The notes under the pieces: model-generated | What the model saw: the letters and a program-made list of their open reading frames with translations, nothing else | Database searches by the model: none | What the model was told of the DNA's origin: nothing | Shown: positions 15,109 through 50,177 of the stretch, one piece after another | Position numbering within the stretch: position 1 is the first letter of the stretch | How the letters are laid out: each line of letters opens with the position of its first letter | Assembly: GCA_027063305.1 (NCBI GenBank) | Contig: JAMORY010000034.1 | Span: 1 to 64,000, forward strand | Reading direction: 5' to 3' | Source of the DNA: Sulfurovum sp. | Lineage (GTDB): Bacteria; Campylobacterota; Campylobacteria; Campylobacterales; Sulfurovaceae | Length of the DNA: 64,000 bases | Translations under genes and position numbers: made by a program

Positions 15109-15176
15109 CCATCTTTTCATACGCCTCTTATTGAAAAAAAGATAAAATTAATACAAATTATTTTAAGGTGACTTTA

Positions 15177-17504
15177 ATGCTCAGAAAAATTGTATTTTCA
15201 TGGATGCTCATAGGATCTCTCCTGCTTGCGCAGAAGATCACACAGATCAAGTTCGAAGGGCTTTCACACCTCTCACCGTCAGTGGCAAAGGAGATCTCCG
15301 GACTACATGTCGGTGAGGAGATGGATGCAGACAAGATTAATGAAGCGTTGGTGAACTTCTTTAATCAAGGCTATTTCGAGGATGTCTGGGTCGATAGGGA
15401 AGGTGGCGTATTGACTTTTCACTTCAAAGAGAGAAAGGCGATCGCAAATGTTGAGGTCAAAGGATTTGGCTCAGACGACCAAACAGAACAACTGCTTAAG
15501 AGTATTGGGCTTAAAAAAGGGGATCTGTATGATGAAGTGCGTGTACAAAGAGCGAAGAAGCTTTTAGCAGAACGTCTTCAAAGCCAAGGGAACTACGACT
15601 CTGTTATTGAAGTGACTGAGACACCGGTAGGGAAGAATGCAGTTTCGATCGTATTTGAAATGAATAAAGGGGAGAAGATCAAGATCAAAAAGATCAAGTT
15701 CGAGGGTGCAAAAGCACTGAACAAGAGCGACCTTGAACGTGATCTTGTGAACAAAGAGGAGGATTTCCTTGGATGGATCCCGTTCTTGAACAATGGGGAA
15801 GTGCATGTCGATCAACTTGAGTATGATGCCTACCGCCTAAAAGAGACCTATATGAAGCATGGGTACCTTGATGCTGAGGTAAGTAAACCTTTGATGAAGG
15901 TCGACTACAGCAACTATAGTGCGGAAATCGATTATAAGATCAAAGAGGGACCGCAGTATCGTATCGGAAATGTTTCGATCGCAAAAGGGGTACATGGATT
16001 GGACGTTACGGCATTGAGCAGTAATTTGAAATTGAAGTCCGGTCGTATATTCAATATCAGTAAAATGAGAAAAGATATCGAGATGATCCGTAATGCCGTT
16101 GGAGATCTTGGATATGCTTTTGCCAAAGTATCACCTCAAATGAGAAAGGACCCGGCAAAGAAGATCGTCAATATCCAGTATGTGATCGATCCGGGTAAAA
16201 GGGTGAAGATCCATGATGTTCTGATATCAGGGAACGATGTGACAAAAGATAGAGTGATCCGTCGCTATATCTATTTGGCACCGGGGGACTACTTTAGTGC
16301 GACAGACCTTAAAGACAGCCGAAGTGCATTAGGAAGGACAGGATTCTTCGAGCATGTCGATATTCAGAGTGAACGTATCTCCGATGATGAGATCGATCTT
16401 CTTGTAAAGGTGAAAGAGGCGCATACGGGTACGATCTCTCTAGGGGGTGGATATGGTAGTTATGAAGGGATCATGGTCAATGCCAGTGTTTCCGATAAGA
16501 ACCTGTTTGGTTCAGGGATCACCGGAAGTTTTGGGATCGATGTCTCCAAGATATCTCAGAACTATAACTTTTCATTGATCAACCCAAAAGTATGGGACAG
16601 CCCGTATAGTCTTGGTGTAAACCTTTATAAGCGTAACTATGAATATATCGACTATACCGAAGATAGTATAGGAGGATCATTGACACTAGGAAGAGAGTTC
16701 TTCCGTCATTTCTATGCATCGGTAGGTGTAGGATATGTCGATAACCAATCGACCTACAACGATGATGCGAACCTTACGAATATCGAGCAGTTGATCTATA
16801 ACGACCAGTATAGCAAGACCTCATTCTTCGCCAGCATTAAATTTGACAATACCGATGACTATTATCAGCCAAGAGAGGGGATGATCGCAGCGCTCAATCT
16901 TGAGTTCGCTTCTCTAAGCGGAGATGATTACAACAATACGACCTACCCTGACGGATACGGTACGTTCGTCAAGTCGACCATGAAGTTCGGAGTATACTAT
17001 GGAATGGAAGATATTATCGATTATGATCTTATCTTGCGTTTTAAGGCAAGAGCGACCTATATTAGTAAGCGTAGTGAGGATGAGAAACTTCCTGTAGCAG
17101 AAAGACTCTATATGGGAGGGATAGGAAGTGTAAGAGGGTATGACCCTTATTCGATCTCTCCTGTATTGCCAAACGGTGACCGTATAGGGGGAACCTACCG
17201 TAGTTCAGCTTCCTTTGAAGCAAGTATCCCACTCTCCGAAGCAGCGAAAATGCGTTTGGCATTCTTCTACGATATCGGTATGGTCGGTATGGATAAAGAA
17301 CCATATACTGTGATCGATCCCGATACGGGAGATACGATCAGAAAATACTATGAGCAGGATGATATCGTACGCTCTTCGATCGGTGCAGTTGTTGAGTGGC
17401 AGTCTGGTTTTGGTCCGATCAACTTGGTATTCGGATATGCACTGGATGACGAACCGGGAGATGAAACCTCTGTCTTCGAATTCTCCATGGGGTCTAAGTT
17501 CTAA
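15177..17504 (+). CDS. bamA: BamA outer-membrane protein assembly factor
   Basis: 775 aa from the ATG at 15177 (AAGG 9 nt upstream); a GTG at 15168 overlaps the ribosome site and is disfavoured. A signal peptide (MLRKIVFSWMLIGSLLLAQ) is followed by five POTRA modules (from ITQIKFEGLSHLSPSVAKEI; VEVKGFG; IKKIKFEGAKALNKSDLERD; GNVSIAKGVHGLDV; IHDVLISGNDVTKDRVI) and a C-terminal 16-strand barrel. The barrel carries the loop-6 motif GSVRGYDP (VRGY instead of the common VRGF) and ends in FSMGSKF with a terminal aromatic beta-signal. It is the essential insertase for outer-membrane beta-barrels. TAAAAT at 15143-15148 may be its -10. Confidence 0.94.
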   Translation: MLRKIVFSWMLIGSLLLAQKITQIKFEGLSHLSPSVAKEISGLHVGEEMDADKINEALVNFFNQGYFEDVWVDREGGVLTFHFKERKAIANVEVKGFGSDDQTEQLLKSIGLKKGDLYDEVRVQRAKKLLAERLQSQGNYDSVIEVTETPVGKNAVSIVFEMNKGEKIKIKKIKFEGAKALNKSDLERDLVNKEEDFLGWIPFLNNGEVHVDQLEYDAYRLKETYMKHGYLDAEVSKPLMKVDYSNYSAEIDYKIKEGPQYRIGNVSIAKGVHGLDVTALSSNLKLKSGRIFNISKMRKDIEMIRNAVGDLGYAFAKVSPQMRKDPAKKIVNIQYVIDPGKRVKIHDVLISGNDVTKDRVIRRYIYLAPGDYFSATDLKDSRSALGRTGFFEHVDIQSERISDDEIDLLVKVKEAHTGTISLGGGYGSYEGIMVNASVSDKNLFGSGITGSFGIDVSKISQNYNFSLINPKVWDSPYSLGVNLYKRNYEYIDYTEDSIGGSLTLGREFFRHFYASVGVGYVDNQSTYNDDANLTNIEQLIYNDQYSKTSFFASIKFDNTDDYYQPREGMIAALNLEFASLSGDDYNNTTYPDGYGTFVKSTMKFGVYYGMEDIIDYDLILRFKARATYISKRSEDEKLPVAERLYMGGIGSVRGYDPYSISPVLPNGDRIGGTYRSSASFEASIPLSEAAKMRLAFFYDIGMVGMDKEPYTVIDPDTGDTIRKYYEQDDIVRSSIGAVVEWQSGFGPINLVFGYALDDEPGDETSVFEFSMGSKF

Positions 17505-17509
17505 CTAGG

Positions 17510-17577
17510 GGAATAAGCAGGCAAGGTCGGTAAAACTGACTCCTGCAAATCCCACTGCCTCTTTTTATACCCCTAAA
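17510..17577. terminator. Possible bidirectional terminator between bamA and ppx
   Basis: TAGGGG near 17510 and CCCCTA near 17570-17575 are inverted ends around a smaller stem (GCAGG...CCTGC), with a CTTTTT run before the right arm. It lies between convergent genes and overlaps the ppx stop region. Confidence 0.35.
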
Positions 17578-19091
17578 GCCTTACAATGAGGCAATTTCTC
17601 CTCATCTTCAATAATAATAGCGAACGGTATCGGTTTCTCCAGTGAACGTATCTTCTCTTTAGCAAGGTAGAGAGACTGGTCGGAGATGATCGTCAAGGTA
17701 CGGTTTTCGTAGGTAAAACGTATCTTTGCATCATTGGAAGCTTCATGTAGAAAGAGGCTGAGCGTATAGATAAAACTCAGCCACAATAGCGTCTCTTTGG
17801 AAGGAAGTAGTGACTCAAAGCTTTTAAAAAGAGGTTTATGTAAAAGCTCTTTACCATGCATTCTCAAAAGTAAAGAGATCAGCAGAATCTCTTCATGGGT
17901 AAAACCGTAATTGAGCTCTTGCATAGCGATATAGAAGGCATGTTGGTGTGATCTGTAGATAGTCAGCGTCTTTCCGATATTAGAGAGCCTGAGCGCTGTT
18001 TGAAGCTCTTTCTCATAGGCTTTCTTATCGCCGATCTCCACTTGGAGCAGCTCGTAAAGTGCCATTCCCAGTTTACGTTTATGTTTTTTCTTTGAAGCGA
18101 TGTTCACATAGGTTTTGAAGCGGTCGAGTAACGAGACGACACTAGGGTTGATCGTTTTTGGAAAGGAGAGCTTATCGTGTTTGAGAAGTTGTTCCAAAAA
18201 CACCCCCTCTCTGACCCCGACCGAGCTTGTGATAACACGTTTTGCGCCGATGTGAGAGAGGATCTCCAGCCAAATGATCGTTCCTTCACGGATCGTATCG
18301 TAGCGGTTCTTCTTCAAGCCGAAGGCTTTAAGCCCTTTGGCACTGGAGTGGGTAATCGCTTCTAGGTAGCTGTGATGCGTCTTTATATCGTAAGTAAATG
18401 CGTGGAGCTTATCCAAAGGATAGTCGATCTGCTTCATGATCCCTTTGCTAAGAGTACGTGCCGTTCCTCCGATCCCTACGGCAATATGACTCTTAAAGTG
18501 TGCAGGAAGTGTCTGTAGGGCCTCTTCTACATAGGCTTTTGCCTTCTTATAGGCATGTTTCCGTGAGGACTCCCTATCGAAGAAGAGCTCTTTTAGCCGT
18601 ACCGTACCGACATTCAGTGAGTAGGTATCGATAATGACCCCATCTTTAATGAGAGACATATCGGCCGATCCCCCGCCAATATCGATAGTGATGATACTCT
18701 CTTGGATCGGGAGGAGGTTTTTGACCGCAATCGCTCCATAGGTCGCTTCTTGTTTTCCATCGATGATCTTTATCGAGAGTCCCAGCTCTTTTTTGATCCA
18801 GCGTACGAAGTGTGTACCGTTAGGGGCATCTCTGAGTGCAGATGTCGCAACACATATAGTCTTGTGTACCTGATACTTCTCGATGGTAAAAAGAAAGGAT
18901 TGCAGTGCAAGAAAGGCACGTCTGATGCCTATGGGTTGGAGATAGCCGCTCTTTTCGTACGCACCTTCACCGATGCGTACTTTGGACTTCTGCTCACAGA
19001 TAAGATGAAATCCATAACGGCTTGTTTTTTCATAAATGACCAAACGGGCGGAGTTGGAACCGATATCGATGATCGCGGTTCGCTTTGCCAC
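17565..19091 (-). CDS. ppx: Exopolyphosphatase / pppGpp phosphohydrolase (Ppx/GppA)
   Basis: 508 aa of the actin-like ASKHA fold. N-terminal phosphate-1 motif IIDIGSNSARLVIYE, connecting motif ATSALRDAPNG, and phosphate-2 motif IITIDIGGGSADMSLIKDG are followed by an HD-like helical C-terminal domain. The family hydrolyses polyphosphate and/or the 5'-phosphate of pppGpp; which one applies here cannot be decided from sequence. It lies 6 nt downstream of the ferredoxin gene on the same strand, an operon arrangement that recurs in Campylobacterota as I recall. Confidence 0.88.
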   Translation of the reverse strand: MAKRTAIIDIGSNSARLVIYEKTSRYGFHLICEQKSKVRIGEGAYEKSGYLQPIGIRRAFLALQSFLFTIEKYQVHKTICVATSALRDAPNGTHFVRWIKKELGLSIKIIDGKQEATYGAIAVKNLLPIQESIITIDIGGGSADMSLIKDGVIIDTYSLNVGTVRLKELFFDRESSRKHAYKKAKAYVEEALQTLPAHFKSHIAVGIGGTARTLSKGIMKQIDYPLDKLHAFTYDIKTHHSYLEAITHSSAKGLKAFGLKKNRYDTIREGTIIWLEILSHIGAKRVITSSVGVREGVFLEQLLKHDKLSFPKTINPSVVSLLDRFKTYVNIASKKKHKRKLGMALYELLQVEIGDKKAYEKELQTALRLSNIGKTLTIYRSHQHAFYIAMQELNYGFTHEEILLISLLLRMHGKELLHKPLFKSFESLLPSKETLLWLSFIYTLSLFLHEASNDAKIRFTYENRTLTIISDQSLYLAKEKIRSLEKPIPFAIIIEDEEKLPHCKALGV

Positions 19092-19097
19092 GTCGGA

Positions 19098-19349
19098 CTA
19101 CTCTTCTTCTTGAAGTTTTTGGAACTTGAATTTCAGTTCGTCGATATTCTCTACATTATCAGGGTCCGAGATGATACAATCGACCGGACATACAGCAATA
19201 CACTGTGGCTCGTCGAAGTAACCTACACACTCTGTACATCTGTCAGGGTCGATCACATAGATCGGATCGTTCTCTTCAATAGATTCGCTTGGACATTCTT
19301 CTCTACATGCATCGCATGCGATACATTCGTCAGTGATTAATAGTGCCAT
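19098..19349 (-). CDS. 2[4Fe-4S] ferredoxin, YfhL/Alvin type
   Basis: 83 aa from the ATG at 19349 with GAGG upstream. Two clusters are visible: CIACDACREECP (CxxCxxCxxxCP) and CTECVGYFDEPQCIAVCP, where the second motif has an eight-residue loop between its second and third Cys, the hallmark of Allochromatium-type ferredoxins. An acidic C-terminal helix follows. It is a low-potential electron carrier in the cytoplasm. An in-frame upstream start would add 15 residues and lacks support. Confidence 0.92.
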   Translation of the reverse strand: MALLITDECIACDACREECPSESIEENDPIYVIDPDRCTECVGYFDEPQCIAVCPVDCIISDPDNVENIDELKFKFQKLQEEE

Positions 19350-19444
19350 ATTTTCCTCGGTTTGTTTAAATTTATAGGAGTTATAACCTAGCAATGCTTA
19401 TGCTTTATTTAAATGAAAGGATTTTTTAAATGTTTGGAGAGAAA

Positions 19445-19485: not shown

Positions 19486-20163
19486 TCAATCGATCTTTTT
19501 GGGGAAGCAGAAGCGGTATCCGCGTCTTCTTACGGTCTCGATAGTCGTGATGTTGAGTGGTTTGTCCATCTTCTGTCTGATCTGGTTGATCGCAACTTCA
19601 ATGACATTGGGTGTGACAAGTTCAGGCTCTTCCCAGATCGCATCGAGTAGTTGCTCTTTGGAGACGATCTGGTCTTTGTGCATGGCAAGATGTGTCAAGA
19701 CCTCGAACGGTTTACCTTTGAGTTCGATCTCGTTGTTCTGATAGATGATCTTCTCTTCCTCAGGATTGATGATCAAGTCTTCGATCTCGATGATATTGGA
19801 AGCACCAAAACGGAGTTTCGCTTCGATACGTACAAGAAGTACATCGTTATCAAGCGGCTTTCTGATGTAGTCGTCCGCACCGGAACGGAGGGCTTCTATC
19901 TCGCTTTCTTTGTCAAATCGTTCCGAGATCACGATGACCGATGTCTTCGGAGTCACCTTTTTAATCTCTGAAATGATATTGAGCCTTGTTTGGGGTGTAG
20001 AGGCCGGCCATGCCAACAGTAGCAGGTCGTAATTGCGAATATCAAAGTAGTATTGGGCATCTTTGACATTGCCAACGACATCACACTGATAGTTGTGCTC
20101 TGTCAAAAGGTTCGCTATCTCTTTTGACAGACCTATATCCTCTTCTAGCATTAATACTCTCAT
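19486..20163 (-). CDS. hsrA: HsrA/CosR-type atypical OmpR-family response regulator
   Basis: 225 aa. The C-terminal winged helix (EEKIIYQNNEIELKGKPFEV, then LDAIWEEPE, VIEVAINQIRQKMDKPL and VRRRGYRFCFP) closely recalls Helicobacter pylori HsrA (HP1043) and C. jejuni CosR, essential orphan regulators of housekeeping and redox genes. The receiver domain lacks the phospho-acceptor aspartate: RNYDLLLLAWPAS places Ala51 where OmpR proteins have Asp. E7/E8/D9 and K102-region (YIRKP) remain. It therefore probably works without phosphorylation. A strong extended -10 (TGCTATAAT) lies upstream at 20199-20207, and the gene is divergent from a degenerate hybrid kinase. Confidence 0.88.
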   Translation of the reverse strand: MRVLMLEEDIGLSKEIANLLTEHNYQCDVVGNVKDAQYYFDIRNYDLLLLAWPASTPQTRLNIISEIKKVTPKTSVIVISERFDKESEIEALRSGADDYIRKPLDNDVLLVRIEAKLRFGASNIIEIEDLIINPEEEKIIYQNNEIELKGKPFEVLTHLAMHKDQIVSKEQLLDAIWEEPELVTPNVIEVAINQIRQKMDKPLNITTIETVRRRGYRFCFPKKID

Positions 20164-20198
20164 CTCTCTATGCCCCTTTTCATTTAAGATATTTTTAA

Positions 20199-20207
20199 AT
20201 TATAGCA
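20199..20207 (-). promoter_or_regulatory. Extended -10 of the hsrA-like gene
   Basis: On the minus strand the sequence reads TGCTATAAT, an extended -10, 36 nt before the ATG. The whole divergent gap (20164-20386) is strongly A+T-rich. Confidence 0.55.
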
Positions 20208-20386
20208 TAAAAAATCCATTTCTGAAATTTTTTTTAAAATAAGCGGCTATTTATGGTTCAAAATGATAACTTTGATTTGCTTTATTGATATAGAACAACA
20301 TACCTTTTGAGTTTTTTCGATATGATTATTTACAGATATTTCAACGATAAACAAGATGTTGGATATTGTATAAGAGGATTAATGTG

Positions 20387-22564
20387 ATGAAGCGTATCGT
20401 ATATGTATGGCTGTTTTTACTTTCTGTGACTTTTGCAGCGGAAGTCTCCCCCGGATCGATCGATATGACAACGATGTGGATCGCCCTGTTCGCGATGGGC
20501 TTTATTGGCATATTGATCCTCTATACCTCTTCAAGACGTATGAAGAAAATTGAAGACCTGCATAAGAATATGGTAGAGAAACAAAAAGAGATCGAACATA
20601 AGCAGAATGTGTTCCTCTCCAGTATTACGGAGAACATCCATGAGATCGTGGAACATACCTATAAAGAGGTAACGGTTCAGCACAAGGAGTGTTTGCCGCA
20701 AGAGATCATCGATAAAGAGGAACAGCTTTTGAGTGTGACCAATGACCTGATCGAATTTTTACGATTAAAGTCTAAAAAGGTCAAGGTGATCCATGAGAAG
20801 CTGAACCTGAACAACGTACTGAATGAAGCGGCGGGATCTGCCTGTTCCAAATTTTACGGAAGCCGTACGGAGCTGATCTTCGATATCGATAATAATATCC
20901 CGCGTTATTTGATCGGAGATGCACTCCACTTGGAGAAAGCACTGCACAATCTGCTGGAGTATGTTCTAGGCACAATGAAAGAGGGAGAGGTGAGTCTTGC
21001 TATTTCAATGTTCGGTAACTATCAAAAAGATATCGAACTTCAGTTCCGCTTGAGTGATACGGGGGATGGGCTTGAAAAAGAGGCGATAGAGAAACTCTTT
21101 ATTCCCGAGTACGATGAAAAGACCAAGCAGTATAGCGGATTGGGGCTCTATGTTGCCAAAGAGCTTATCTCGCTTATGGGCGGAGAGCTCTCTGTTCAGA
21201 GTAAAGTAGGGAAAGGAACGACATTCACTACAACGATCCCGTTCAAGATGATCGATCCGAACAATCGCCGTAACTACCATCTTCCGACAAAAGAGCTTAC
21301 GATTAAACGGGTATTCATCGTAGATAGCAATTACAATTCGGCACTGGCGATCAAGAAGATGTTCTCTTATTTCAGACATGATGTCAAGACCATGGAGAAA
21401 GAGGAATTCCTTCGTAAGAAAGTGGATCTTAGCGGATATGATATGGTCGTACTGGAAGTCGGTATCTTTGGTTATAAGAAGATATACAACTATTTAGAAC
21501 AGGTCAAAGCCAAACATGATACCAAGGTGATCGCACTTGACAGTCTGCTTCGTGACCCTGAGAAGAAGCGTCAGTATGATGTTGTGGACCGTACGCTGAA
21601 CAAGCCGTTAAGTCAAGAGCGTGTATTTGAATTGATCGTGGGACTTTATGCCAAAGCGAAACCTGAACCGCGCCGTGTAGAGGCGGTACGGATCCCTGAG
21701 GTCAAAGAGGAGCAGGGATTGACCCATATGGGTGCGATCCGTGAAGCGACAGGTATCACACAGCAGAGTTTCAGTGACTTTAGCGGTGTACGTCTATTGA
21801 TTGTTGAGGATGATACGATCAATCAGAAAGTACTGGCGAACATCTTGAAGGTATCGGGCATGGATATCACCTTTGCCGATAACGGTCGTATCGCGGTCAA
21901 TACGCTTAAAGAGAGTGATGAACCGTTCGATCTGGTTCTTATGGATATCAATATGCCTGTGATGGATGGATATACGGCAACGGAGGAGATCCGTAAGGAT
22001 GCACGTTTTGATACCATGCCTATTGTAGCGTTCACGGCACTTGCTTTAGAGAGTGAAAGAGAGAAGATATTTAAATGCGGGATGAACGCATATCTGACCA
22101 AACCGTTGAATATCGGTAAGCTCTATACGGTCTTTGAGATGTATCTTAAAGAGAGACGAGGCGCTACTACACGACCGCTTAAACAAAAAGAGGTTGTCGC
22201 ATCGAAGGCTACAAAAGAGATCGATCCGCATATTCTTGATATCCAAAGTGGATTGCTCCATACCAATAGGAACAGTGGTTTTTATATGGAGATACTCTCT
22301 GAGTTCGAAGATGCATACGGAGAGAGTGCAGAGACATTTGCCAAGCTTGTCAAAGAGCACCGTTATGAGCAGATCAAAATGCTCTGTATCGATATGAAGG
22401 GATTGACAGGAACGATAGGTGCAAGAGCGATGTATGAGTTGATCGTTGAGATCCATCAGCAGATACTTTATAAAAAAGAGTCCTTACTGGAGAATTATAT
22501 CGAGCCGTACCGCACAACGCTAGAAGCGCTTAAACATGAGATATCACGTTATGTAGAGGAGTGA
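20387..22564 (+). CDS. Degenerate hybrid sensor kinase with two receivers and an HPt-like tail
   Basis: 725 aa from the ATG at 20387 (AAGAGG upstream). A signal/transmembrane segment and a second helix (WIALFAMGFIGILIL) are followed by a coiled coil, then a dimerisation helix FLSSITENIHEIVE where the H-box histidine is replaced by Glu82 (a histidine three positions later, H85, is out of register). The ATP-binding domain keeps a D-box (LSDTGDGLE) and G-box (SGLGLYVAKEL). Receiver 1 has Glu357 instead of Asp (VVLEVGI). Receiver 2 is canonical (LMDINMP, Asp520). The C-terminal HPt-like helix reads LCIDMKG, with Ile668 in place of His. Only one of four phosphorelay residues survives. It is divergent from the receiver-less hsrA-type gene. 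The 3' end overlaps the convergent ychJ-like gene by 16 nt. Confidence 0.85.
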   Translation: MKRIVYVWLFLLSVTFAAEVSPGSIDMTTMWIALFAMGFIGILILYTSSRRMKKIEDLHKNMVEKQKEIEHKQNVFLSSITENIHEIVEHTYKEVTVQHKECLPQEIIDKEEQLLSVTNDLIEFLRLKSKKVKVIHEKLNLNNVLNEAAGSACSKFYGSRTELIFDIDNNIPRYLIGDALHLEKALHNLLEYVLGTMKEGEVSLAISMFGNYQKDIELQFRLSDTGDGLEKEAIEKLFIPEYDEKTKQYSGLGLYVAKELISLMGGELSVQSKVGKGTTFTTTIPFKMIDPNNRRNYHLPTKELTIKRVFIVDSNYNSALAIKKMFSYFRHDVKTMEKEEFLRKKVDLSGYDMVVLEVGIFGYKKIYNYLEQVKAKHDTKVIALDSLLRDPEKKRQYDVVDRTLNKPLSQERVFELIVGLYAKAKPEPRRVEAVRIPEVKEEQGLTHMGAIREATGITQQSFSDFSGVRLLIVEDDTINQKVLANILKVSGMDITFADNGRIAVNTLKESDEPFDLVLMDINMPVMDGYTATEEIRKDARFDTMPIVAFTALALESEREKIFKCGMNAYLTKPLNIGKLYTVFEMYLKERRGATTRPLKQKEVVASKATKEIDPHILDIQSGLLHTNRNSGFYMEILSEFEDAYGESAETFAKLVKEHRYEQIKMLCIDMKGLTGTIGARAMYELIVEIHQQILYKKESLLENYIEPYRTTLEALKHEISRYVEE

Positions 22565-22962
22565 TCGAACACGCCGTCCGCATAGAGCCACTTCCCGTCC
22601 ACTCTAAGGAAGCGGCTCTTCTCTTTTAAGATGCCAGAAGAGAGTTCCGCTTCAAATGTAACGAACGCTTCTTTCTCTTCTTCTTGAAAGTCCATCACAT
22701 TTAAGTGTAGAAACTCCGTATATGTCGAGAACTGTACGATCTCCTCTTTCCATGTGGGTCTATCTTTATTATACTCTGGGTTTTGGGGGTGTGTGGTCTT
22801 GATGATATACTCTGCCAAGCCAAAAGCGTAGGCGCTATAGCGAGAGCGCATCAATGCTTCAGCATTTTTAGGCAGAGCGCCTTTATGGTACTTTTGGCAG
22901 CACTTCTTATATTTCTGTCCACTTCCGCAAGGGCAGGGGAGGTTTGCAGAGGGTTTTTTCAT
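22549..22962 (-). CDS. YchJ-like SEC-C motif protein (UPF0225)
   Basis: 137 aa. The N-terminal SEC-C zinc motif CPCGSGQKYKKCCQKYH is followed by a YchJ domain (ALMRSRYSAYAFGLAEYIIK; FSTYTEFLHLNV; SRFLRVDGKWLYADG) related to the NTF2 fold. Function is unknown; SEC-C modules bind zinc and, in SecA, SecB or ribosomes. The start abuts the stop of the NlpC/P60 gene (1-nt overlap), so the two are transcribed together. Its 3' end runs into the end of the opposing kinase gene. Confidence 0.85.
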   Translation of the reverse strand: MKKPSANLPCPCGSGQKYKKCCQKYHKGALPKNAEALMRSRYSAYAFGLAEYIIKTTHPQNPEYNKDRPTWKEEIVQFSTYTEFLHLNVMDFQEEEKEAFVTFEAELSSGILKEKSRFLRVDGKWLYADGVFDHSST

Positions 22963-23843
22963 TAGCGTATCTCCGCGATAAAGGCATCTTTTCTGATCTC
23001 TTTTCGTACCTTTGCCCGTGCCTCTTCCGCCTCTTTATGCGTTCTATACGGGCCAATAAGCAGTTTGTTGATCATCTCCTTTCCTTTAGGGAAACGGATG
23101 ATCTTGTACTCAAAGCCGTTGCGTTTGATCTTATAGAGCAGAGAGGAGGCAGGTGCGCCGCTAAATGAGCCTACTTGTACATAGAAGTTCCCCTCTGCAT
23201 GCTTTTGTTCTATCTGTTTCATCGGTGCTTTGATGACCACGGCACGCTTTTTATCGCCTTGTGTGGTTTGTGGTGCAGGAGCGGTTTGTGCACTCTGTTT
23301 CCACGGTGCCTCATTCGTATTGAGAGGGACACGCTCTTCAGGTAGGTAGCGGCGGCAGACGCGAAGTCGCTTTTTATAGTAAGGCGATGTATAGAGGTTT
23401 GAGTAGATCACCTCTTTTTTCACCGTACTTGCATGGGTGAACCATCCGTCCCCCAAGTACATCCCTACATGGGTGATCTTACGCGGGTGACGTCTGTCGG
23501 TCGAGAAGAAGATGAGGTCTCCGTACTGAAGCTCTTTGGGGCTGATGCGTTTCCCTACCTTCGCCTGTTCTCTGGCTACACGTGGGATCTCGATGCCCAT
23601 TGAGCCGTAGAGGTAGTAAGTGAAGCCTGAACAGTCAAACTTGTCCGGCCCCTCTTCCGCCCAGACATAAGGGCTTCCTTGCAGCTGTTTTACCATCTTC
23701 TCAAGGTTCTTTCTATCAGGTGTATACCGAACTTTCGGTTTCTCTATCTCATAGTTGGGATGTTTGGGATAGGGGTCGGGTTTACATCCTGAGATCAAAA
23801 GTGCCAATGCCGATAGAACGAGGTATTGTGATGGATTTTTCAT
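22962..23843 (-). CDS. NlpC/P60 peptidoglycan endopeptidase lipoprotein with SPOR domain
   Basis: 293 aa. Lipoprotein signal with lipobox LLISGC (Cys20). The NlpC/P60 domain (about 60-175) has the catalytic Cys in DKFDCSGFTYYLYG and the His in ITHVGMYLGDGWFTHAS. A basic/Ala-Pro-rich linker leads to a C-terminal SPOR domain (NFYVQVGSFSGAPASSLLY...KLLIGPYRTHKEAEEARAKV), which binds denuded septal glycan. It probably cuts peptide stems during division at the inner face of the outer membrane. A TATAAT on the minus strand (23851-23856) ends only 7 nt before the ATG, and no Shine-Dalgarno is seen, suggesting a leaderless or near-leaderless mRNA. Confidence 0.88.
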   Translation of the reverse strand: MKNPSQYLVLSALALLISGCKPDPYPKHPNYEIEKPKVRYTPDRKNLEKMVKQLQGSPYVWAEEGPDKFDCSGFTYYLYGSMGIEIPRVAREQAKVGKRISPKELQYGDLIFFSTDRRHPRKITHVGMYLGDGWFTHASTVKKEVIYSNLYTSPYYKKRLRVCRRYLPEERVPLNTNEAPWKQSAQTAPAPQTTQGDKKRAVVIKAPMKQIEQKHAEGNFYVQVGSFSGAPASSLLYKIKRNGFEYKIIRFPKGKEMINKLLIGPYRTHKEAEEARAKVRKEIRKDAFIAEIR

Positions 23844-23850
23844 AAAGAAG

Positions 23851-23856
23851 ATTATA
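23851..23856 (-). promoter_or_regulatory. -10 box placed to give a leaderless NlpC/P60 mRNA
   Basis: TATAAT on the minus strand, separated from the ATG at 23843 by CTTCTTT. If used, transcription would begin within a base or two of the start codon. Confidence 0.4.
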
Positions 23857-23886
23857 GGTGAAGTTATGTAAAACGAGGCTAAAAGC

Positions 23887-23905
23887 CTTCGCTAAAGGGG
23901 CGAAG
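23887..23905 (-). terminator. Possible queA terminator hairpin
   Basis: CTTCGC and GCGAAG arms with a 7-nt loop lie just past the queA stop on the minus strand. The stem is short and no long T-run follows. Confidence 0.3.
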
Positions 23906-23911
23906 ATACTT

Positions 23912-24931
23912 TTAGAGTATCAGCATCGCATCACCGTATGAGAAGAAACGGTACTTTTTGGTGATGGCCTCTTGATAAAGAGCCAATGTCTTTTCTCTAC
24001 CGACAAAGGCGCTTACGAGCATAATGAGGGTGCTTTTGGGCAGGTGAAAGTTGGTCAGCAGGTGTGTGACACGCTGCGGGGGATTATGCGGATTTAGAAA
24101 GAGGTCGCACTCCCCCTCTTTTTTATGGGTGCGGACGTAATACTCCACTGTGCGTGTAACCGTTGTTCCGATGGCAAGGATAGGGGCTGTTGAATCGAGT
24201 ACTTTCGCAGCATTATCGGAGATGTGAAAATACTCCGAGTGCATTGGATGCTCAAGAATGTTCTCCGCTTCAACGGGCTTGAATGTACCTGCACCTACAT
24301 GCAGGGTGAGTGTGTGGGTCGGGTGTGTGGCTTTGAGCACTTCAAAGAGTTCGGGTGTAAAGTGCAAAGAAGCGGTCGGTGCGGCAACGGCACCGGCATT
24401 TTTGGCAAAGAGTGTCTGATAGTCGGTCTCATCTTCTGCTTTGTCCTCTCTTTGCATATAGGGGGGGAGTGGGATATGCCCTATCTCATCAAGAAGTGTG
24501 ACCAGCCTCTCAAAGCGGATCGTTTCTTCGTTTTGTGTGAATGTTACGATCCTTGAACCGTCATCGTTGAGTGTTTCTACTGTAGCAACGAGCCCCCTGT
24601 CGAAGAAGAGTTCGGTACCGATGCGCACTTTTCCGCGTATCATTACCAAATAGCGGTGGGCATCAAGCGGTTTGTTAAAGAGCAGTTCCACTTTCCCGCC
24701 ACTTCTCTTTTTACCGAAGATACGAGCCTTGATGACACGGGTATCGTTGAGAAATACATCACACGGAGGGAGAAATTCAAGTAGGTGTTTGAATGTGGTA
24801 TGGGTAACGGTATCGCTCTTTCTGTCGTAGACCAGCAGTTTGGCATGGTCTCTAGGATGTACAGGCTCAGAAGCGATCAGTTCGCTTGGGAGTGTATAAT
24901 CGTAGCTTTGGGTCAGAAGTTCGACGGACAT
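23912..24931 (-). CDS. queA: tRNA preQ1(34) S-adenosylmethionine ribosyltransferase-isomerase
   Basis: 339 aa. QueA transfers and isomerises the ribose of SAM onto preQ1 at tRNA position 34 in queuosine synthesis. Characteristic segments are YDYTLPSELIASEPVHPRDHAKLLV, DVFLNDTRVIKARIFG, GHIPLPPYMQR, VAAPTASLHFTPEL, HVGAGTFKPV, EYFHIS and LLTNFHLPKSTLIMLVSAF. Length is typical. It abuts tatC (stop/start adjacent) in a tatB-tatC-queA run on the minus strand, an order known from Campylobacter. Confidence 0.96.
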   Translation of the reverse strand: MSVELLTQSYDYTLPSELIASEPVHPRDHAKLLVYDRKSDTVTHTTFKHLLEFLPPCDVFLNDTRVIKARIFGKKRSGGKVELLFNKPLDAHRYLVMIRGKVRIGTELFFDRGLVATVETLNDDGSRIVTFTQNEETIRFERLVTLLDEIGHIPLPPYMQREDKAEDETDYQTLFAKNAGAVAAPTASLHFTPELFEVLKATHPTHTLTLHVGAGTFKPVEAENILEHPMHSEYFHISDNAAKVLDSTAPILAIGTTVTRTVEYYVRTHKKEGECDLFLNPHNPPQRVTHLLTNFHLPKSTLIMLVSAFVGREKTLALYQEAITKKYRFFSYGDAMLIL

Positions 24932-25954
24932 CTATACGCCAGCGGATGCATCTTTCCCATCCTCCTCCTCATCATCCGACTTCTCAGGGTTGACCGCCGC
25001 AACGATCAGAATGGAGAGCCCGTAAAGCAGTACCAACGGTGCGGCCATAAGCAGCTGTGTCAAGATATCCGGTGGTGTAAGCAGTGCGGCAAGGATGAAG
25101 ATCATTACCACAGCATACTTGAAGAAGTCTTTGAGGGTTCTGTCGGTGACCAATCCCAGAAGTGCCAGGAAGTAGGCAAAGACAGGTAGTTCAAAAGCGA
25201 TACCGAACCCCATCATGATCTTGGTGAAGAACCCGACATAATCTTCAATGTTGATAAGCGGTGTATAGAGGAACGATCCAAAGGTGATGAGAAACTGGAA
25301 TCCGAACGGCGTAACGATATAGTAGGCAAAAAGCACACCGATAAAGAACATCACCGATCCACCGATAACAAAGGGCAGTACCATCTTCTTCTCATGGCTG
25401 TAGAGTCCCGGAGCGACAAAGAGCCAGAGCTGATAGAGAATGAACGGCATCGCCATCAATAACCCTGCAAAGAAAGAGACCTTCAGCGCAACGAAGAATG
25501 CACCTCCGACCTGATGGGTGGTGATCTGTCCGTTAAAGGTGTTGTGTATGGAGAGGTCCTTCGATCCGTTGCCGTCCATCCCTTTGATCTGTTTGAGTGT
25601 ACGTGTCAGCTCTTTGGCGGCTGATGCGGCATCTTTGAGTAGCGGTGCAAGTGTTCCCTGTGCGGCGTTTGCAGCGCTATCAAGTTTCTCTTCGAGTTTG
25701 GTTGCTGCAGCGACCGGAGTATTCGCCTTGAGGGAGATGTTGTGCTCTTGCGCTTGCATCTTCCATGTCGCTTTATCTTGCGATTCGATAATACGACCCA
25801 CTTCGGTCAATGCATTATTGAGCGGTTGTGTGATCCAAGTAAGGATGGTATTGTGGAAAGTAAAGGCGATGACAAATGCGATGAAGACCGAAAGAACGGA
25901 GAGACCGAGTCTTTTTCTCAGTTCGGCAAGGTGTGGGCGGAGCTCTTCAAACAT
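24932..25954 (-). CDS. tatC: TatC twin-arginine translocase with enlarged first periplasmic loop
   Basis: 340 aa; usual TatC is about 250. HLAELRKRLGLSVLSVF is the N-terminal signature, then TM1. Normal TatC follows with a roughly 25-residue periplasmic loop; here residues about 45-150 intervene, including an Ala-rich helical stretch (KLEEKLDSAANAAQGTLAP, KDAASAAKELTRTLKQI). The rest is canonical: LYQLWLFVAPGLYSHEKK, FGIAFELPVFAYFLALLGLV, LTPPDILTQLLMAAPL. The C-tail is acidic (KSDDEEEDGKD). TatC recognises RR signal peptides and forms the translocase with TatB, encoded immediately upstream. What the extra loop does is unknown. Confidence 0.92.
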   Translation of the reverse strand: MFEELRPHLAELRKRLGLSVLSVFIAFVIAFTFHNTILTWITQPLNNALTEVGRIIESQDKATWKMQAQEHNISLKANTPVAAATKLEEKLDSAANAAQGTLAPLLKDAASAAKELTRTLKQIKGMDGNGSKDLSIHNTFNGQITTHQVGGAFFVALKVSFFAGLLMAMPFILYQLWLFVAPGLYSHEKKMVLPFVIGGSVMFFIGVLFAYYIVTPFGFQFLITFGSFLYTPLINIEDYVGFFTKIMMGFGIAFELPVFAYFLALLGLVTDRTLKDFFKYAVVMIFILAALLTPPDILTQLLMAAPLVLLYGLSILIVAAVNPEKSDDEEEDGKDASAGV

Positions 25955-26400
25955 CAGGCGTTCTCCTCTTTCTTATCCATATCGACGGACTTGAATGTTG
26001 TCTGTTCTTTCTTCTTGAACGTCACGGTCTCCATCTTCGGCTCGACCTGTGTGGTCGGTTTCTTCACATCGTCAGCATAGGCGCTCTTGAACGATGCGGT
26101 CTCCGAACGCTCTTGAGGGATAACAGGTTCGTCGAGTATCTCATCCATAGAGATGTTCTTAAAGCCTTGCAGTTCACTGGTCGCACTGTTGAGCTTCTGT
26201 TTATAGCTGAGTGCTTCCTCTTTCAAGTCGGCGATCTTCATCTCCTCTTCAAGGGAGCTTTTCGCTTCGTTGACGGTTCGTTTCACGCTTTTGAAGAATT
26301 TTGCGATCTGTACCATCGCTTCGGGGAGTTTGTCCGGTCCCAAAAAGAGGATCGCAATGATCGCAATAAGAAGTATTTCGGTAAATCCGATGCCAAACAT
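25954..26400 (-). CDS. tatB: TatB subunit of the twin-arginine translocase
   Basis: 148 aa. MFGIGFTEILLIAIIAILFL, followed by GPDKLPE, is the TatB N-terminal membrane helix with its conserved GP hinge; an amphipathic helix follows (MVQIAKFFKSVKRTVNEAKS). The rest is a charged, coiled cytoplasmic tail. Its stop overlaps the start of tatC by 1 nt. TatB, rather than TatA, is supported by length and linkage to tatC. No tatA is visible in the window. Confidence 0.92.
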   Translation of the reverse strand: MFGIGFTEILLIAIIAILFLGPDKLPEAMVQIAKFFKSVKRTVNEAKSSLEEEMKIADLKEEALSYKQKLNSATSELQGFKNISMDEILDEPVIPQERSETASFKSAYADDVKKPTTQVEPKMETVTFKKKEQTTFKSVDMDKKEENA

Positions 26401-26439
26401 GGTCTGCCTTCATAGTAAATTGGTTTGTATTTTAACAAA

Positions 26440-27495
26440 TTAATCTAAAATGTAGAGAGCAAGGCTGTCGGCAATGAAAAGGTCGGGGTTGATAAAGCGC
26501 CCCTCATGCCTAAGAAGCTTCCCCTCCTCACAGAGTAGAGTCGCTCTCTCATACATGGTGGGGGTAAGTATATCGGCATTGATGCCGATGGTACTGCGAA
26601 GACCGAGAAAAATGCTTTCTGTTCGCAACATATCGGGAGTGAGCACTTCGGTCTTGGTATGAAGAGGATTGTCAATATAGGCGTGAATGTCACTATGGGG
26701 GTAGAAGCGTTCGTTCTTGCAGAACCCGACCGCACCCGCACCTGCACCGATATACGCCTCCAGTTGCCAGTACCCTTGGTTGTGTCGGCTTTGGTAGCGT
26801 CCGAAATTGGAGATCTCATAGTGTGTAAACCCGTGTGCCTTGATCGTATCGGCGACAAAAAAGGCAATTTCATCATCCGATTGTCTTACTTCGGGTGTGG
26901 CGGTGAACTTCGTGCCATCCTCAATGGTCAGTTCATAGGCGGAAATGTGGTCGATCGGAAGCGAGAATGCGGTCTCTATATCGTCATGAAGTAGTCTTTT
27001 CGTATCTCCGGCATAGTTGTAGATGAGATCGAGAGAGATATGTTCGATACCGATGGCTTTTGCATTGTTGACCGCTTTTATGGCCTCTTCAGGGCTATGC
27101 GCACGGTTGAGCTTTCGCAATTTTTGCGCATCGAAACTCTGTACTCCGAAGCTGACACGGTTGACACCGAGATCATGCATCCCTTTTAGCCACGCTTTGG
27201 ATGCGGAATTGGGGTTTGCCTCTGTCGTGATCTCGGCATTCGGTGCGAAATAGGGGGTAAGCAGTTCGAATATCGGAGCGTAAGCCTCGGGTACGACCGT
27301 AGAGGGGGTGCCTCCGCCGATGAAGAGGGTCTCTATACTTCCTTTTTTCGCCTCGAAACGTTCCAGCTCGTAAGCGAGTTGACGGGTGAGCGCTTGCATG
27401 TAGTCGTGACGTGTATCGAACTTGTCGACATAGGAGTTGAAGCTGCAATAGTGGCATTTGGAGTCGCAATAGGGGATATGGATATAGGTTAACAT
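26440..27495 (-). CDS. hemW: HemW-like radical SAM protein (formerly HemN-like coproporphyrinogen oxidase)
   Basis: 351 aa. The radical-SAM cluster motif is CDSKCHYC (CxxxCxxC) within IHIPYCDSKCHYCSFNSYVD. Other markers: ETLFIGGGTPSTV, ITTEANPNSASKAWL, VNRVSFGVQSFDAQKLRKLN, HISLDLIYNYAGDT and YEISNFGRYQSRHNQGYW. The short N-terminus before the first Cys marks HemW, a haem chaperone, rather than true HemN. It is read away from rppH; the 135-bp gap between them is A+T-rich and should hold both promoters. Confidence 0.88.
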   Translation of the reverse strand: MLTYIHIPYCDSKCHYCSFNSYVDKFDTRHDYMQALTRQLAYELERFEAKKGSIETLFIGGGTPSTVVPEAYAPIFELLTPYFAPNAEITTEANPNSASKAWLKGMHDLGVNRVSFGVQSFDAQKLRKLNRAHSPEEAIKAVNNAKAIGIEHISLDLIYNYAGDTKRLLHDDIETAFSLPIDHISAYELTIEDGTKFTATPEVRQSDDEIAFFVADTIKAHGFTHYEISNFGRYQSRHNQGYWQLEAYIGAGAGAVGFCKNERFYPHSDIHAYIDNPLHTKTEVLTPDMLRTESIFLGLRSTIGINADILTPTMYERATLLCEEGKLLRHEGRFINPDLFIADSLALYILD

Positions 27496-29322: not shown

Positions 29323-29868
29323 ATGCAGCAGCTTTTAAAGTGGACACTACAGACCATTCGTGACGAGGATTGCTTCTCTTGGATGGAGGAGTACCGTTAT
29401 GAGTGGGCACCGCTGGTAAAGAGTGCTGTATCGCAAATGATCGAGGGGAAGACGGTACTTCTTGTTACCGATACCCAGCGTCAATGGTTTGGACGCTATA
29501 TCCTCGGAAAGGTCAACGCCTTGGAGAAGAACCGACCGCTTTTGCCCGTCTATCCTTTGGTACAGATGTTCCCATCCATTCAGAACTTCTCAAATACGCA
29601 GGATCTGCAACTGCTTGAAGATATGCTTGAGATCTCCTATCCTAATGGCTATTTCGTCTGGTATATCGGGAAAGGGGATCACCCTTTTACAAAGTTCGTC
29701 TATCGTTGTGAAGAGAGTTTTCTATGGATACTCGATGAAGAGGTCGAGAATAGTTTTCTCCTGCGCAGTAGCGATGAACTTCTTGATATTAAACTACTGC
29801 AACTCTACAAACTTTTTGATATGACACTTTCCGAAGTGCTCTTTGGGGATCTTGACCTTGAGTCGTGA
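29323..29868 (+). CDS. hobA: HobA, DnaA-interacting replication initiation factor
   Basis: 181 aa. HobA is a Campylobacterota-specific, DiaA-like SIS-fold protein that tetramerises and bridges DnaA monomers at oriC. Visible are an N-terminal helix (LLKWTLQTIRDEDCFSWMEE), VLLVTDTQRQWFGRYILGKVN, LPVYPL and a hydrophobic C-terminus. Length and position between lysC and holB match HP1230 and its Campylobacter counterpart. Its 3' end overlaps holB. Confidence 0.88.
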   Translation: MQQLLKWTLQTIRDEDCFSWMEEYRYEWAPLVKSAVSQMIEGKTVLLVTDTQRQWFGRYILGKVNALEKNRPLLPVYPLVQMFPSIQNFSNTQDLQLLEDMLEISYPNGYFVWYIGKGDHPFTKFVYRCEESFLWILDEEVENSFLLRSSDELLDIKLLQLYKLFDMTLSEVLFGDLDLES

Positions 29869-30499
29869 ACTGATTCTTCAGAGTCAAGTACTCATCAGTA
29901 GCGATATCGAACAGACACTGGCACAACTGCGTACACTGCAACAGAATGAACGTCTTGTGGAGATCGTCAAGCTTGAACCTAAGGATGACACCTTCAAGGT
30001 CGAAGATGCCAAACTTGCCATAGAGAAGGCCTATATGGCAAGCGAAGAGACCACGGTCATTATTTTGGCAGCCAGAACATTTTCACCGATCGTACAGAAC
30101 AAACTGCTTAAAGTTATAGAGGAGCCACCGCCTAAAAAGGAGTTTATCCTCATCACTCCGTCAAAAGCGACGATCCTTCCTACCATTCGTTCACGTCTAC
30201 CTATTCGGGTACTGCATGATGCATTGGATGACTATGCATTAGAGCTTGAGGTGTCACAGTTAAGTTTAGGAAACGTATATGCATTTGTACAAGCGCATAA
30301 ACGTACCGATGCAAAGCAGATGAAACGCATTATTGAGCGTATTGCAAAAGAGGCGATGCTCTCACAGCGTTTCGATCTTGACGAAAAGACATTGATACTC
30401 TTCTCCAACGCCTATATCGCACTCGATGTCGGCTCTCCGCCGCAGTTTGTTCTGACTACGCTGCTGTTGAAGCTTTTGGCACGTAAAAAACGCACATAA
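29858..30499 (+). CDS. holB: DNA polymerase III delta' subunit, short form
   Basis: 213 aa, much shorter than E. coli HolB (about 330). Clamp-loader delta' features: EDAKLAIEKAYMASEETTVI, ARTFSPIVQNKLLKVIEEPP (the helix before the sensor) and ITPSKATILPTIRSRLPI, containing the SRC-like TIRSR. No Walker A is seen, as expected for delta'. In-frame TTG codons occur at 29843, 29852 and 29858; the last is best placed behind GGGGA, and all overlap the hobA end. The short form is usual in the phylum, judging by the neighbouring order. Confidence 0.82.
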   Translation: MSRELILQSQVLISSDIEQTLAQLRTLQQNERLVEIVKLEPKDDTFKVEDAKLAIEKAYMASEETTVIILAARTFSPIVQNKLLKVIEEPPPKKEFILITPSKATILPTIRSRLPIRVLHDALDDYALELEVSQLSLGNVYAFVQAHKRTDAKQMKRIIERIAKEAMLSQRFDLDEKTLILFSNAYIALDVGSPPQFVLTTLLLKLLARKKRT

Positions 30500-46861: not shown

Positions 46862-47253
46862 AGTGTGCTTCCTTTTGGGTTGATCAGTGCTGTATCCATG
46901 ATCTCAAAAAGTTGTGTGAACTCAATGGGTTTGGTGATCAAAGCATAGCCACCGGCATCTTTCATTTTGCTAAGATTTATCTGGTCATCACAAGCACTGA
47001 CGAAAATGATCGGAATGTGAGTTGTCGCAGGGTCTGTCTTTAGTGCTTTACATACGGCAAATCCATCGATACCCGGCATCATGATATCAAGTAGGATGAG
47101 CTCGGGCTGTTCCTCTTTGGCTGTTTCGATCGCGTATGCTCCGTCAGCAATGGCAATGACATCATAGAGCTGAGAGAGTGCTTCATATAGTAGTTCGAGA
47201 TTTGTCTCGTTGTCATCGATGATCATAATGGTGTGTTCTTCTGTCTGGGTCAC
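46858..47253 (-). CDS. Single-domain response regulator
   Basis: 131 aa receiver with intact acidic pair ([14 protein letters not shown]), phospho-acceptor in [15 protein letters not shown], Thr/Ser (FVSACDD) and Lys (ITKPIEF). There is no output domain. Its start overlaps the end of the large hybrid kinase (ATGA), which makes the two a likely phosphotransfer pair. Confidence 0.88.
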
Positions 47254-50177
47254 GAAAGTTCCTTTATCTGTGCAATTGCCTGTTTAAAATCGAATTTATG
47301 GACGAGTTTATCGATACGGGAGATAATGTCTCTCTCCTCCTCTGTCAATGTGTTGCTTTTTAGAAGTTTCTCCAAGAGTGGCTTACATGCTTTAAGGCGT
47401 TTATGTTGAAGTGCCTCTTCTAGTTCCGAGATAAGATGTGTTTTATCCATAGCATCACTTTTTGCTTCTTCCTTCTCATCTTGTTGGGAGCTAGGTACTT
47501 CTATCTGTTGTAACTCCTCAATGACCTCTTGAAGTGTATCATGGAAAATAGGGAAGAGGGAGCGGTCATAGGTTTGATCCAATATTTTGGTGATCTCATG
47601 AAGTTCAGTTGCCCCTATACCTGCGGACATCCCTTTGATATTGTGGATCGTACGTCTACAGTTCTCCTCATCCAGTGTATCCAGATTAAGCATCTCAAAA
47701 TCACTCTTGAATCGTTGAAGCATCATACGGTAGAGCTTGATGTTCTCTCCTGCATACTTCATTCCGATCTGAGTATCGATATGGGTGAAATGCGGTATGG
47801 TATCCGTATCGGTCTGTGTCGTATGTAGGGAGATGCTCTCTTTTTGATGACAGCTATCTTTTTTCTCTTGTTCTTGATGAGGCTGTTCTGGCAGGCAGTG
47901 GATCAAGAGTTCATAGAACTGTTCTGCATTAATAGGTTTGCTAAGGTGGGAGTTCATACCGGCGAGTGCTGTGGCCTCTATATCTTCTTTCATTGCGTTC
48001 GCAGTCAAGGCTACGATCATGATCTGTGTATCCTTCTCTCTAATGATCTTGGTCGCTTCAAACCCATCCATGACAGGCATTTGAATATCCATCAAGATCA
48101 GATCATAGGTATTATGAAGGGCTTTGTCCACCCCCTCTTGCCCGTTTTGTGCAATATCGAGTATGATTCCTGTATCTTCAAGTAATCCTTTGATGATCTC
48201 TTGGTTGGTCTCATTATCTTCTACCAGCAGGATCGATGAACCTGCATATCGACGTAGTTCTTCTTGAAGGGATAAGACAGATGTCTGTTGTTCTTGAGAT
48301 TCTTGTTTGGGTGTGGTCTGATAGAAGATACCGCTGAGAATATCGTTGAGCGTTGAAGGGTTGATCGGTTTTTGCAAGAATATATCGATCCCTGACCGTT
48401 TGGCTGTCTCAATAATACTCTCTTGACGGAAACTGCTTATCATGATCATCGATGGGGGTTGAGGCATATGATGGGCTTTACAGAGTGCCTGAAGCTGTTT
48501 TGCTGTCTCTATTCCGTCGGTCTGTGGCATGTTCCAGTCAACGATAATAAGGTCGAACTTCGTTCTACACTCTTGGAACATCTCCAGCGCATCGGTTGCA
48601 TTATAGGCATGGTGTGTTTGAATGTCAAAACTCTCAAGCATATCCCCAAGGATCTTATGCCAACTCTCAGAGTCATCGATAAGCAGTACACGCTTATTGC
48701 TGAAGAGGGTATAGTGACACGCCTCTTCCACCTCTTCGAGTGGAAGTTCAAAAATGAACCGGCTTCCTTTTCCCTCTTCGCTCTCGACCCAGATCTGTCC
48801 CCCCATCATCTCTACAAGTTGCTTAGAGATACTAAGCCCTAATCCTGTTCCGCCGTATTTACGTGTGGTGCTGTTATCTGCCTGTGTAAAGGAGCTAAAG
48901 AGTTTCTCTTGTTGCGCTTCTGTTAGACCGATGCCCGTATCTTCTACGATAAATCGGTATAGCCCCTTTTCAATACGTACGATATAGACACCGATATGTC
49001 CCGTTTGTGTGAACTTGACGGCGTTACTAAGCAGGTTCGTCAATATCTGTCCGATACGCAGTCCGTCCCCTATATAGGTACGACCCATATTGCAGTCGTA
49101 ACTTACGATCAGCTCAAGGTTCTTCTCCTGTACTTTCATCTCTATTAATGCCAGAGAGTTCTCAACCATTTTGAATAGATCGAACTTCGTATGTTCAATG
49201 GCAAGTTTCCCCGCTTCGATCTTTGAAAAGTCCAAGATATCATTGATGATGTTCAGAAGTGATTTCGCACTCTGATCGATTTTTTGAAGAAAGCGTTTCT
49301 GTTTTTCGTTCAGTTCCGTTTGCAAAAGAAGGTGTGTCATCCCCAGAACACCATTCATCGGTGTACGTATCTCATGAGACATGTTCGCAAGGAAGTCGGC
49401 TTTGACCTGTGCGGAGTGTTCCGCTTTCTGTTTCGCGATCTTTAGTGAATGTGTCTTGATCTTGATCTCGTTGGAGAGGTCTTTTTCTATTTGGTGTATC
49501 TGCTTATAGTCTTGGTGCGAGAGGTAGATGAAGTAGAAGAAGATTGCAAAGAGTACGATCAGGATCAGGAACTGCATGGTGAAGATAGCGTTAAAGTTCT
49601 TGAACAGTAGCTGTTTGATCGTATCGATACGCATATCCGCACCAATAATATAAGGCGTGCCGTTTTGTGTATGTTTGGGGATCAATATACTTCTAAATGT
49701 ACCCCATTGATCACTACTCTCTTCAAAAAAAGGGCTGTTGCTCTCAAAGATATGCAAGAGCTCTTTACTTGCTTTGTCATAACTGTCAAAATAGCGTGTA
49801 AATGTCTTTTCCCGTATTTCCGAAGGGGTTGCACTGGAGAGAATAAAGTGAACCTTACCGTTCTTTATCGTCATAGCATAAACATAGGCTATGTCACTGT
49901 TTTGGGTAAATTGAGAAAGTTTACGGATATTGTTGAGATCTTCTTCTTTTTTGATAGAGGCTGCATCGATTGCCCGGTCGAAAAAGTCTTGATCGACAAG
50001 GAGCTCTGTATTTAGCGCAGCGGTCTTGAGTTTGCCGTCAACCATTTGATAGAGTAGCTCTTTATTGGTCTGGTATGTCCAGTAGGCATTCAAAAGTGAA
50101 ATAAAGACCAGCGAACTAAAAAGATAGATGATCAGATGACGCTTTTTTTTATGACTGATATAGAGTGTATGGATCAT
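47250..50177 (-). CDS. BarA-like hybrid sensor kinase (HK-REC-REC-HPt)
   Basis: 975 aa. Two membrane helices (about 14-32 and 196-214) flank a periplasmic double-Cache-like sensor. A coiled coil is followed by H-box [20 protein letters not shown]-box ([13 protein letters not shown]), G-boxes ([21 protein letters not shown]), two receivers ([26 protein letters not shown]), and an HPt domain with His in [14 protein letters not shown]. Every phosphorelay residue is present, in contrast to the degenerate hybrid at 20387-22564. It is upstream of the single receiver gene. Signal unknown. Confidence 0.88.

Follow-up and report, generated by a model that had tools for sequence, protein, structure and literature searches.

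A stretch of 64,000 nucleotides from Sulfurovum sp. (here called the window) carries, at 20387..22564 on the + strand, the gene of a 725-aa pseudo-hybrid histidine kinase that has lost both relay histidines, one in the H-box and one in the HPt domain, and keeps a single intact receiver (R2). Both losses are old and conserved among the orthologues, as expected from the earlier reading of this DNA from sequence alone (the sequence-only reading), according to which the kinase has no relay of its own. Pseudo-kinases (DivL), pseudo-receivers (ShkA and others) and pseudo-HPts (in plants) are each known singly. What stands out here is a large and old family in which both relay histidines are gone, every domain is under selection and one receiver is left intact. 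We judge the chances to be evenly balanced that the protein is a membrane-anchored pseudo-kinase whose R2 receives its phosphate in trans and is read through protein contact.

The span first described, 20164-22564, consists of this coding sequence and the intergenic region before it. The ATG at 20387 was chosen as the best start, GTG 20384 and TTG 20366 being in-frame alternatives. The domains follow in the order signal/TM anchor, pseudo-DHp, HATPase-like CA domain, pseudo-receiver R1, live receiver R2 and pseudo-HPt; Pfam recognizes Response_reg and HATPase_c domains, and the AlphaFold model of the full-length protein has a pLDDT of 79. Residues 1-57 (20387..20557, +) form an N-terminal hydrophobic segment and a TM helix, as seen in the sequence and in model helices 2-17 and 27-97. 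This segment shows the weakest constraint by dN/dS, and with one TM helix the protein is nearly devoid of a periplasmic domain. The best NCBIfam resemblance is to BarA (235 bits, under the cut-off of 890), and the top structural match of the full-length model is ShkA (6qrj, E 3.8e-21), with the kinase cores of RetS and DivL also among the top matches. The order TM-DHp-CA-receiver(s)-HPt is that of BarA, GacS and ArcB, and the pseudo-kinase resembles, and probably descends from, an unorthodox hybrid kinase of the BarA/GacS type. However, among the features that define BarA-type kinases only HATPase_c and a receiver Asp (in R2 only) are present; the two histidines are absent, the R1 acceptor is unconserved and there is no autonomous relay, which places the family outside the BarA-type kinases.

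Searches with the window protein covered 175 genomes of the same taxonomic family and samples of the phylum, with one genome per species, most of them metagenome assemblies. They gave 57 orthologues (window included) and an alignment of 98 family members, in both of which very divergent members are under-represented because the window protein was the query. The residues named in the sequence-only reading (Glu82, Glu357, Asp520 and Ile668, and Ala51 of the neighbouring HsrA) are all exact in the 725-aa numbering. The codon of Glu82 (20630..20632, +) lies at the phospho-acceptor column of the H-box, where the orthologues have Glu in 55 cases, Gln in one, Asn in one and His in none; across the wider family Glu occupies the column in 85/98 members, again with no His. 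A profile-profile alignment of the helix-1 region of the family with 17 canonical kinases of the same phylum (probability 97%, E 4e-10) pairs the family motif 'FLSSITENIH' with the canonical H-box without gaps, so that the Glu falls on the phospho-His column and a shifted H-box alignment is ruled out. His85 is likewise ruled out as a substitute acceptor, its column being His in 45/57 orthologues and otherwise Tyr, Leu, Phe, Arg or Ser. Pfam HisKA was called in none of the 45 family members scanned at E <= 0.01. Since the H-box region of the full-length model (residues 76-103) has a pLDDT below 50, it is the sequence profiles, not this model, that support the DHp assignment.

The HATPase_c-like CA domain (residues 177-287; 20915..21247, +; Pfam E 5.3e-17) was found in all 45 family members scanned. 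The family combines a kinase fold with a conserved replacement of the His, as in pseudo-histidine kinases of the DivL kind. The G1 Asp is conserved in 57/57 orthologues, in agreement with the earlier observation that the ATP-binding boxes remain; the N-box Asn, however, is kept in only 32 of them (Ser in 23), and the G1 box is gone from many paralogues. The residues of the ATP site are therefore not kept universally across the family.

The C-terminal domain (residues 619-724; 22241..22558, +) was assigned by predicted fold and family alignment, Pfam Hpt giving only E 0.13 on the window protein. An AlphaFold model of this domain alone, built with 59 sequences, is an HPt four-helix bundle (pLDDT 96) that matches a Shewanella HPt (Z 17.7, 1.4 A) and the HPt of E. 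coli BarA (Z 15.0). The predicted bundle is without His, like a pseudo-HPt of the AHP6 kind: the His column, Ile668 here (22388-22390), holds Leu in 22, Val in 19, Ile in 12, Met in three and Phe in one of the 57 orthologues, and the residue right after it, Asp669 (22391-22393), is Asp in every one. In the literature, the His is missing from 0.9% of HisKA and 0.9% of Hpt domains (PMC12632262), and the absence of both in 57/57 orthologues is beyond chance. Not every member of the broad family has a pseudo-HPt: in genus g48 (family f7) a long member keeps the HPt His ('AHDIKG') next to the same Asp (L113:5874-10011, also L301). This His + Asp state suggests that the Asp may have arisen before the His was lost. 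In g48, a second degenerate relative lies 13 bp upstream of the long member, with a CA domain, a domain like a receiver and an end resembling an HPt; it has no DHp, and an active kinase adjoining the long member is thereby ruled out.

The two receivers differ in conservation. Pseudo-receiver R1 (residues 308-421; 21308..21649, +) has a receiver-like fold in the model, and its acceptor column (Glu357, 21455-21457) is Asp in 19 orthologues, Asn in 14, His in 11, Glu and Lys in four each, Ser in three, and Tyr and Gly in one each. Thus, of the three substitutions whose conservation was in question, the Glu of the H-box and the loss of the HPt His are defining traits of the family, but Glu357 is one local variant at a column that varies freely. 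Live receiver R2 (residues 468-590; 21788..22156, +; Pfam Response_reg over 471-581) has the highest mean pairwise identity (66%, versus 53-54% for DHp, CA, R1 and HPt). Asp475, Asp520 (21944-21946) and Lys572 are each present in 57/57 orthologues and in 95/98 of the wider family, Thr or Ser stands at 550 in 57/57 orthologues, and the aromatic/Thr switch pair is kept, with Phe or Tyr at 569 in 56/57. The proposal that both neighbouring proteins had abandoned His-Asp chemistry is not borne out by this receiver, whose Asp, acid pair, Thr/Ser and Lys are kept almost without exception. The alpha-1 docking face of R2 ('IN[QR]K') is common to canonical hybrid-kinase receivers and could be mere inheritance. 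R2 chemistry is dispensable in some branches: in genus g5 three divergent members (L017, L018, L170) have lost the R2 Asp and are wholly dead proteins. Genus g5 also has a copy with an intact R2 (L204).

In close pairs, dN/dS lies at about 0.02-0.3, for the most part at 0.02-0.2, in each of the domains, the pseudo-domains among them. Every domain is thus under purifying selection, and because the His columns are lost yet dN/dS stays low throughout, the pseudo-domains are in use. Family members occur in Sulfurovum/Sulfurovaceae and Sulfurimonas/Sulfurimonadaceae, bacteria of vents and sediments. As 76 of the 175 Sulfurovaceae genomes, many of them incomplete, gave no match at E 1e-50, the pseudo-kinase is not essential to the lineage. 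Most members in Sulfurimonadaceae are short proteins of 340-400 aa whose only parts are the TM anchor, one complete receiver and a pseudo-HPt, without the ATPase domain and without any transmitter. Their pseudo-HPt motif, 'LLLDIxGxxANIGA', likewise has a hydrophobic residue in place of His and Asp at +1. This replacement and the +1 Asp also mark the short TM + REC + pseudo-HPt proteins of two Sulfurovaceae genomes. On the tree, long forms, short forms and their relatives make up one clade apart from the canonical hybrid kinases (100/97). The short gene is often divergent from rsmH; at eight Sulfurimonadaceae loci (L285, L287-L289, L293, L294, L300, L304) it is divergent from an rsmH-like gene and is followed by a gene of 92-98 aa and an AcrB-like gene.

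The absence of His from the H-box should leave the pseudo-kinase unable to autophosphorylate by the usual route, and its absence from the HPt should prevent phosphate transfer through that domain. The protein would thus have given up the making and the passing of phosphate and kept one acceptor, R2. Because a relay of its own is impossible, one acceptor is kept and possible donors are encoded in the genome, phosphorylation of R2 in trans is favoured. We infer a mechanism, including the direction of its switch, its partner and its output, in which R2 would both gain and lose phosphate through a different His protein in the cell, be it a kinase or a free HPt, or through a small phosphodonor. The state of R2 would alter its packing against the pseudo-HPt and the pseudo-transmitter, and the output would be a protein contact at the membrane that titrates or allosterically controls a partner relay. 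The core device would be the pair of R2 and pseudo-HPt on a membrane anchor, with CA and R1 as accessories. Candidate donors in the same genome are its His-bearing free HPts and a canonical unorthodox kinase in the window (47250-50177). A further open frame of 234 aa (G000 contig C11:135985-136233, L306) encodes, after a TM helix at the N terminus and a long linker, an HPt with its His ('LTHSIKGSSTTIG'), and this membrane-anchored HPt is a possible donor for R2.

More tentatively, and with rather less than even confidence, the same device may be shared by two Campylobacterota families: a receiver wired in cis to a pseudo-HPt in which His is replaced by a hydrophobic residue with an invariant Asp, such that phosphate would enter the receiver from outside and be read, held or destroyed there, not relayed. 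If true, a family of conserved pseudo-HPts would exist in bacteria, and the relay would work in reverse, sensing the phosphorelay state of the cell. One protein would separate the 'making' from the 'reading' of phosphate, and the family offers a natural experiment on the role of transmitter and HPt folds that are unable to carry it. Domain surveys would miss these proteins, since the Pfam HisKA and Hpt models barely or never recognize them.

Several known systems share single features with the family. DivL, the pseudo-histidine kinase of Caulobacter, likewise has a conserved non-His residue in the H-box and a preserved kinase fold (PMC4211667); however, this residue is Tyr or Ala, and DivL reads a separate regulator, DivK~P, whereas the pseudo-kinase described here carries its receiver and HPt-like domain in the same chain. 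Caulobacter ShkA has the same DHp-CA-pseudo-receiver-receiver order but, unlike the family, is an active kinase with a c-di-GMP switch on its pseudo-receiver and without a fused HPt (PMC12632262). In our literature searches, no title pointed to a paper on a protein of this kind from Sulfurovum or Sulfurimonas, and the papers searched described no family of bacterial proteins that lacks both His, has a conserved residue in place of each and retains one intact receiver. Papers found with 'pseudo-HPt' and its variants dealt with plants. The AHP6-type pseudo-HPt of plants is likewise an HPt fold without His, but AHP6 is a free protein, in contrast to the pseudo-HPt described here, which is joined to a receiver within a membrane protein and has an invariant Asp next to the position where the His was lost.

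Another explanation, unlikely in our estimate but deserving attention, is that the protein serves as a decoy or sink, without conformational signalling of its own: the pseudo-HPt would occupy the receivers of other systems, as AHP6 does, or R2 would drain shared HPts. Purifying selection on a His-less HPt fold, a complete R2 whose docking face suits His bundles and the free HPts of the genome are all consistent with such a role. It leaves unexplained, however, the low dN/dS of pseudo-DHp, CA and R1 and the invariance of Asp669 next to the former His.

We regard as rather improbable a modulator that acts by heterodimerization, in the manner of RetS and LadS, the Pseudomonas hybrid proteins that act on the relay of another kinase. 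The pseudo-transmitter would then pair with a canonical hybrid kinase and block or feed its relay, and R2 would pass phosphate to the HPt of the partner. The structural matches to the RetS and DivL cores point in this direction, as does the signalling of LadS through its receiver to the HPt of GacS (PMC4866733). LadS, however, has active H1 and D1 (PMC4866733), and no lineage common to LadS or RetS and the present family is shown here. A complete unorthodox hybrid kinase, a candidate partner, lies in the window 25 kb from the pseudo-kinase (47250-50177, -), with an H-box SHEIRTP, two receivers and an HPt with 'IHNIKG'. Against such pairing, a partner kinase is not linked to the gene in the contexts examined, and the short members, which have no transmitter with which to pair, still keep R2 and the pseudo-HPt.

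The sequence-only reading had suggested a phosphorylation-independent switch, possibly by ATP binding, that would involve the divergent HsrA as well. The invariant G1 Asp and the strong HATPase_c match would fit it, but the Ser in 23 N-boxes, the G1 boxes lost from many paralogues, the intact R2 and the short members without the whole ATPase domain make it very improbable, and the supposed link with hsrA has another origin. At 56 orthologue loci, ruvX lies divergently upstream of the kinase in 43, several of the other 13 having no upstream DNA, and hsrA adjoins the kinase in none. In the closed genomes G225, G221 and G332 the two genes are more than 1 Mb apart by coordinate. In the genome of the window, contig C27 carries folB and ruvX (29736-30059 and 30062-30448) with 2 bp between them, flanked by plsY and its block at one end and by the ruvX-side genes at the other; in G225, folB-plsY lies upstream of hsrA. 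A single rearrangement, broken at hsrA|folB and ruvX|kinase, accounts for the folB-ruvX junction as its reciprocal product. The lack of linkage at the orthologue loci and this junction show the adjacency of kinase and hsrA to be an accident of one genome, and their linkage is thereby ruled out. This is an example of a rearrangement imitating a functional pair.

The 3' side of the kinase (22549..27495, -) carries genes that, from reading their sequences, we take to encode SEC-C/YchJ-like, NlpC/P60, QueA, TatC, TatB and HemW-like proteins. Most of the 20-kb contexts that were examined show this order next to the orthologue, with the NlpC-queA-tatC block in common with the window. No conserved cognate kinase or regulator was found beside orthologues or short forms in these contexts, where the usual neighbours are ruvX, queA/tat, rsmH and recO/htpG-like genes; the pseudo-kinase gene stands as an orphan among housekeeping genes. 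A decaying gene without function, to which the absence of three of four relay residues might point, is hardly credible and is contradicted for the family by the open frame in orthologues, purifying selection in every domain, conserved synteny and invariant replacement residues.

On the other side of the breakpoint, the HsrA/CosR-type regulator of the OmpR family (19486..20163, -) is an ordinary neighbour outside the system of the kinase. HsrA/CosR (HP1043) is a receiver-degenerate orphan regulator of this family (PMC8345958). The block that travels with hsrA (15168..19394) comprises a BamA-like gene (15168-17504, +), Ppx/GppA (17565-19091, -) and a ferredoxin (19098-19394, -); BamA-like and Ppx genes adjoin hsrA in G225, and Ppx and ferredoxin genes in G221. 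Comparison with relatives places both the breakpoint and the hsrA promoter (TATGCTATAAT, - strand) in the intergenic region 20164..20386. An exact match to the HsrA-type direct repeat TTTAAG-N5-TTTAAA (motif from PMC5253667) stands at 20183-20199 beside the TATAAT box of hsrA and recurs at the same place in several relatives; the hsrA promoter thus survived the rearrangement, and the repeat suggests that hsrA may be autoregulated. An HsrA orthologue is present in 164 of the 175 genomes of the taxonomic family. The description of this HsrA as receiver-dead agrees with its Ala51 and with the known degeneracy of the HsrA family; however, column 51, which is Gly, Ala or Ser in most sequences, is Asp in six of 30 from Sulfurovaceae (L070, L072-L075, L082), and receiver death of HsrA is accordingly not uniform.
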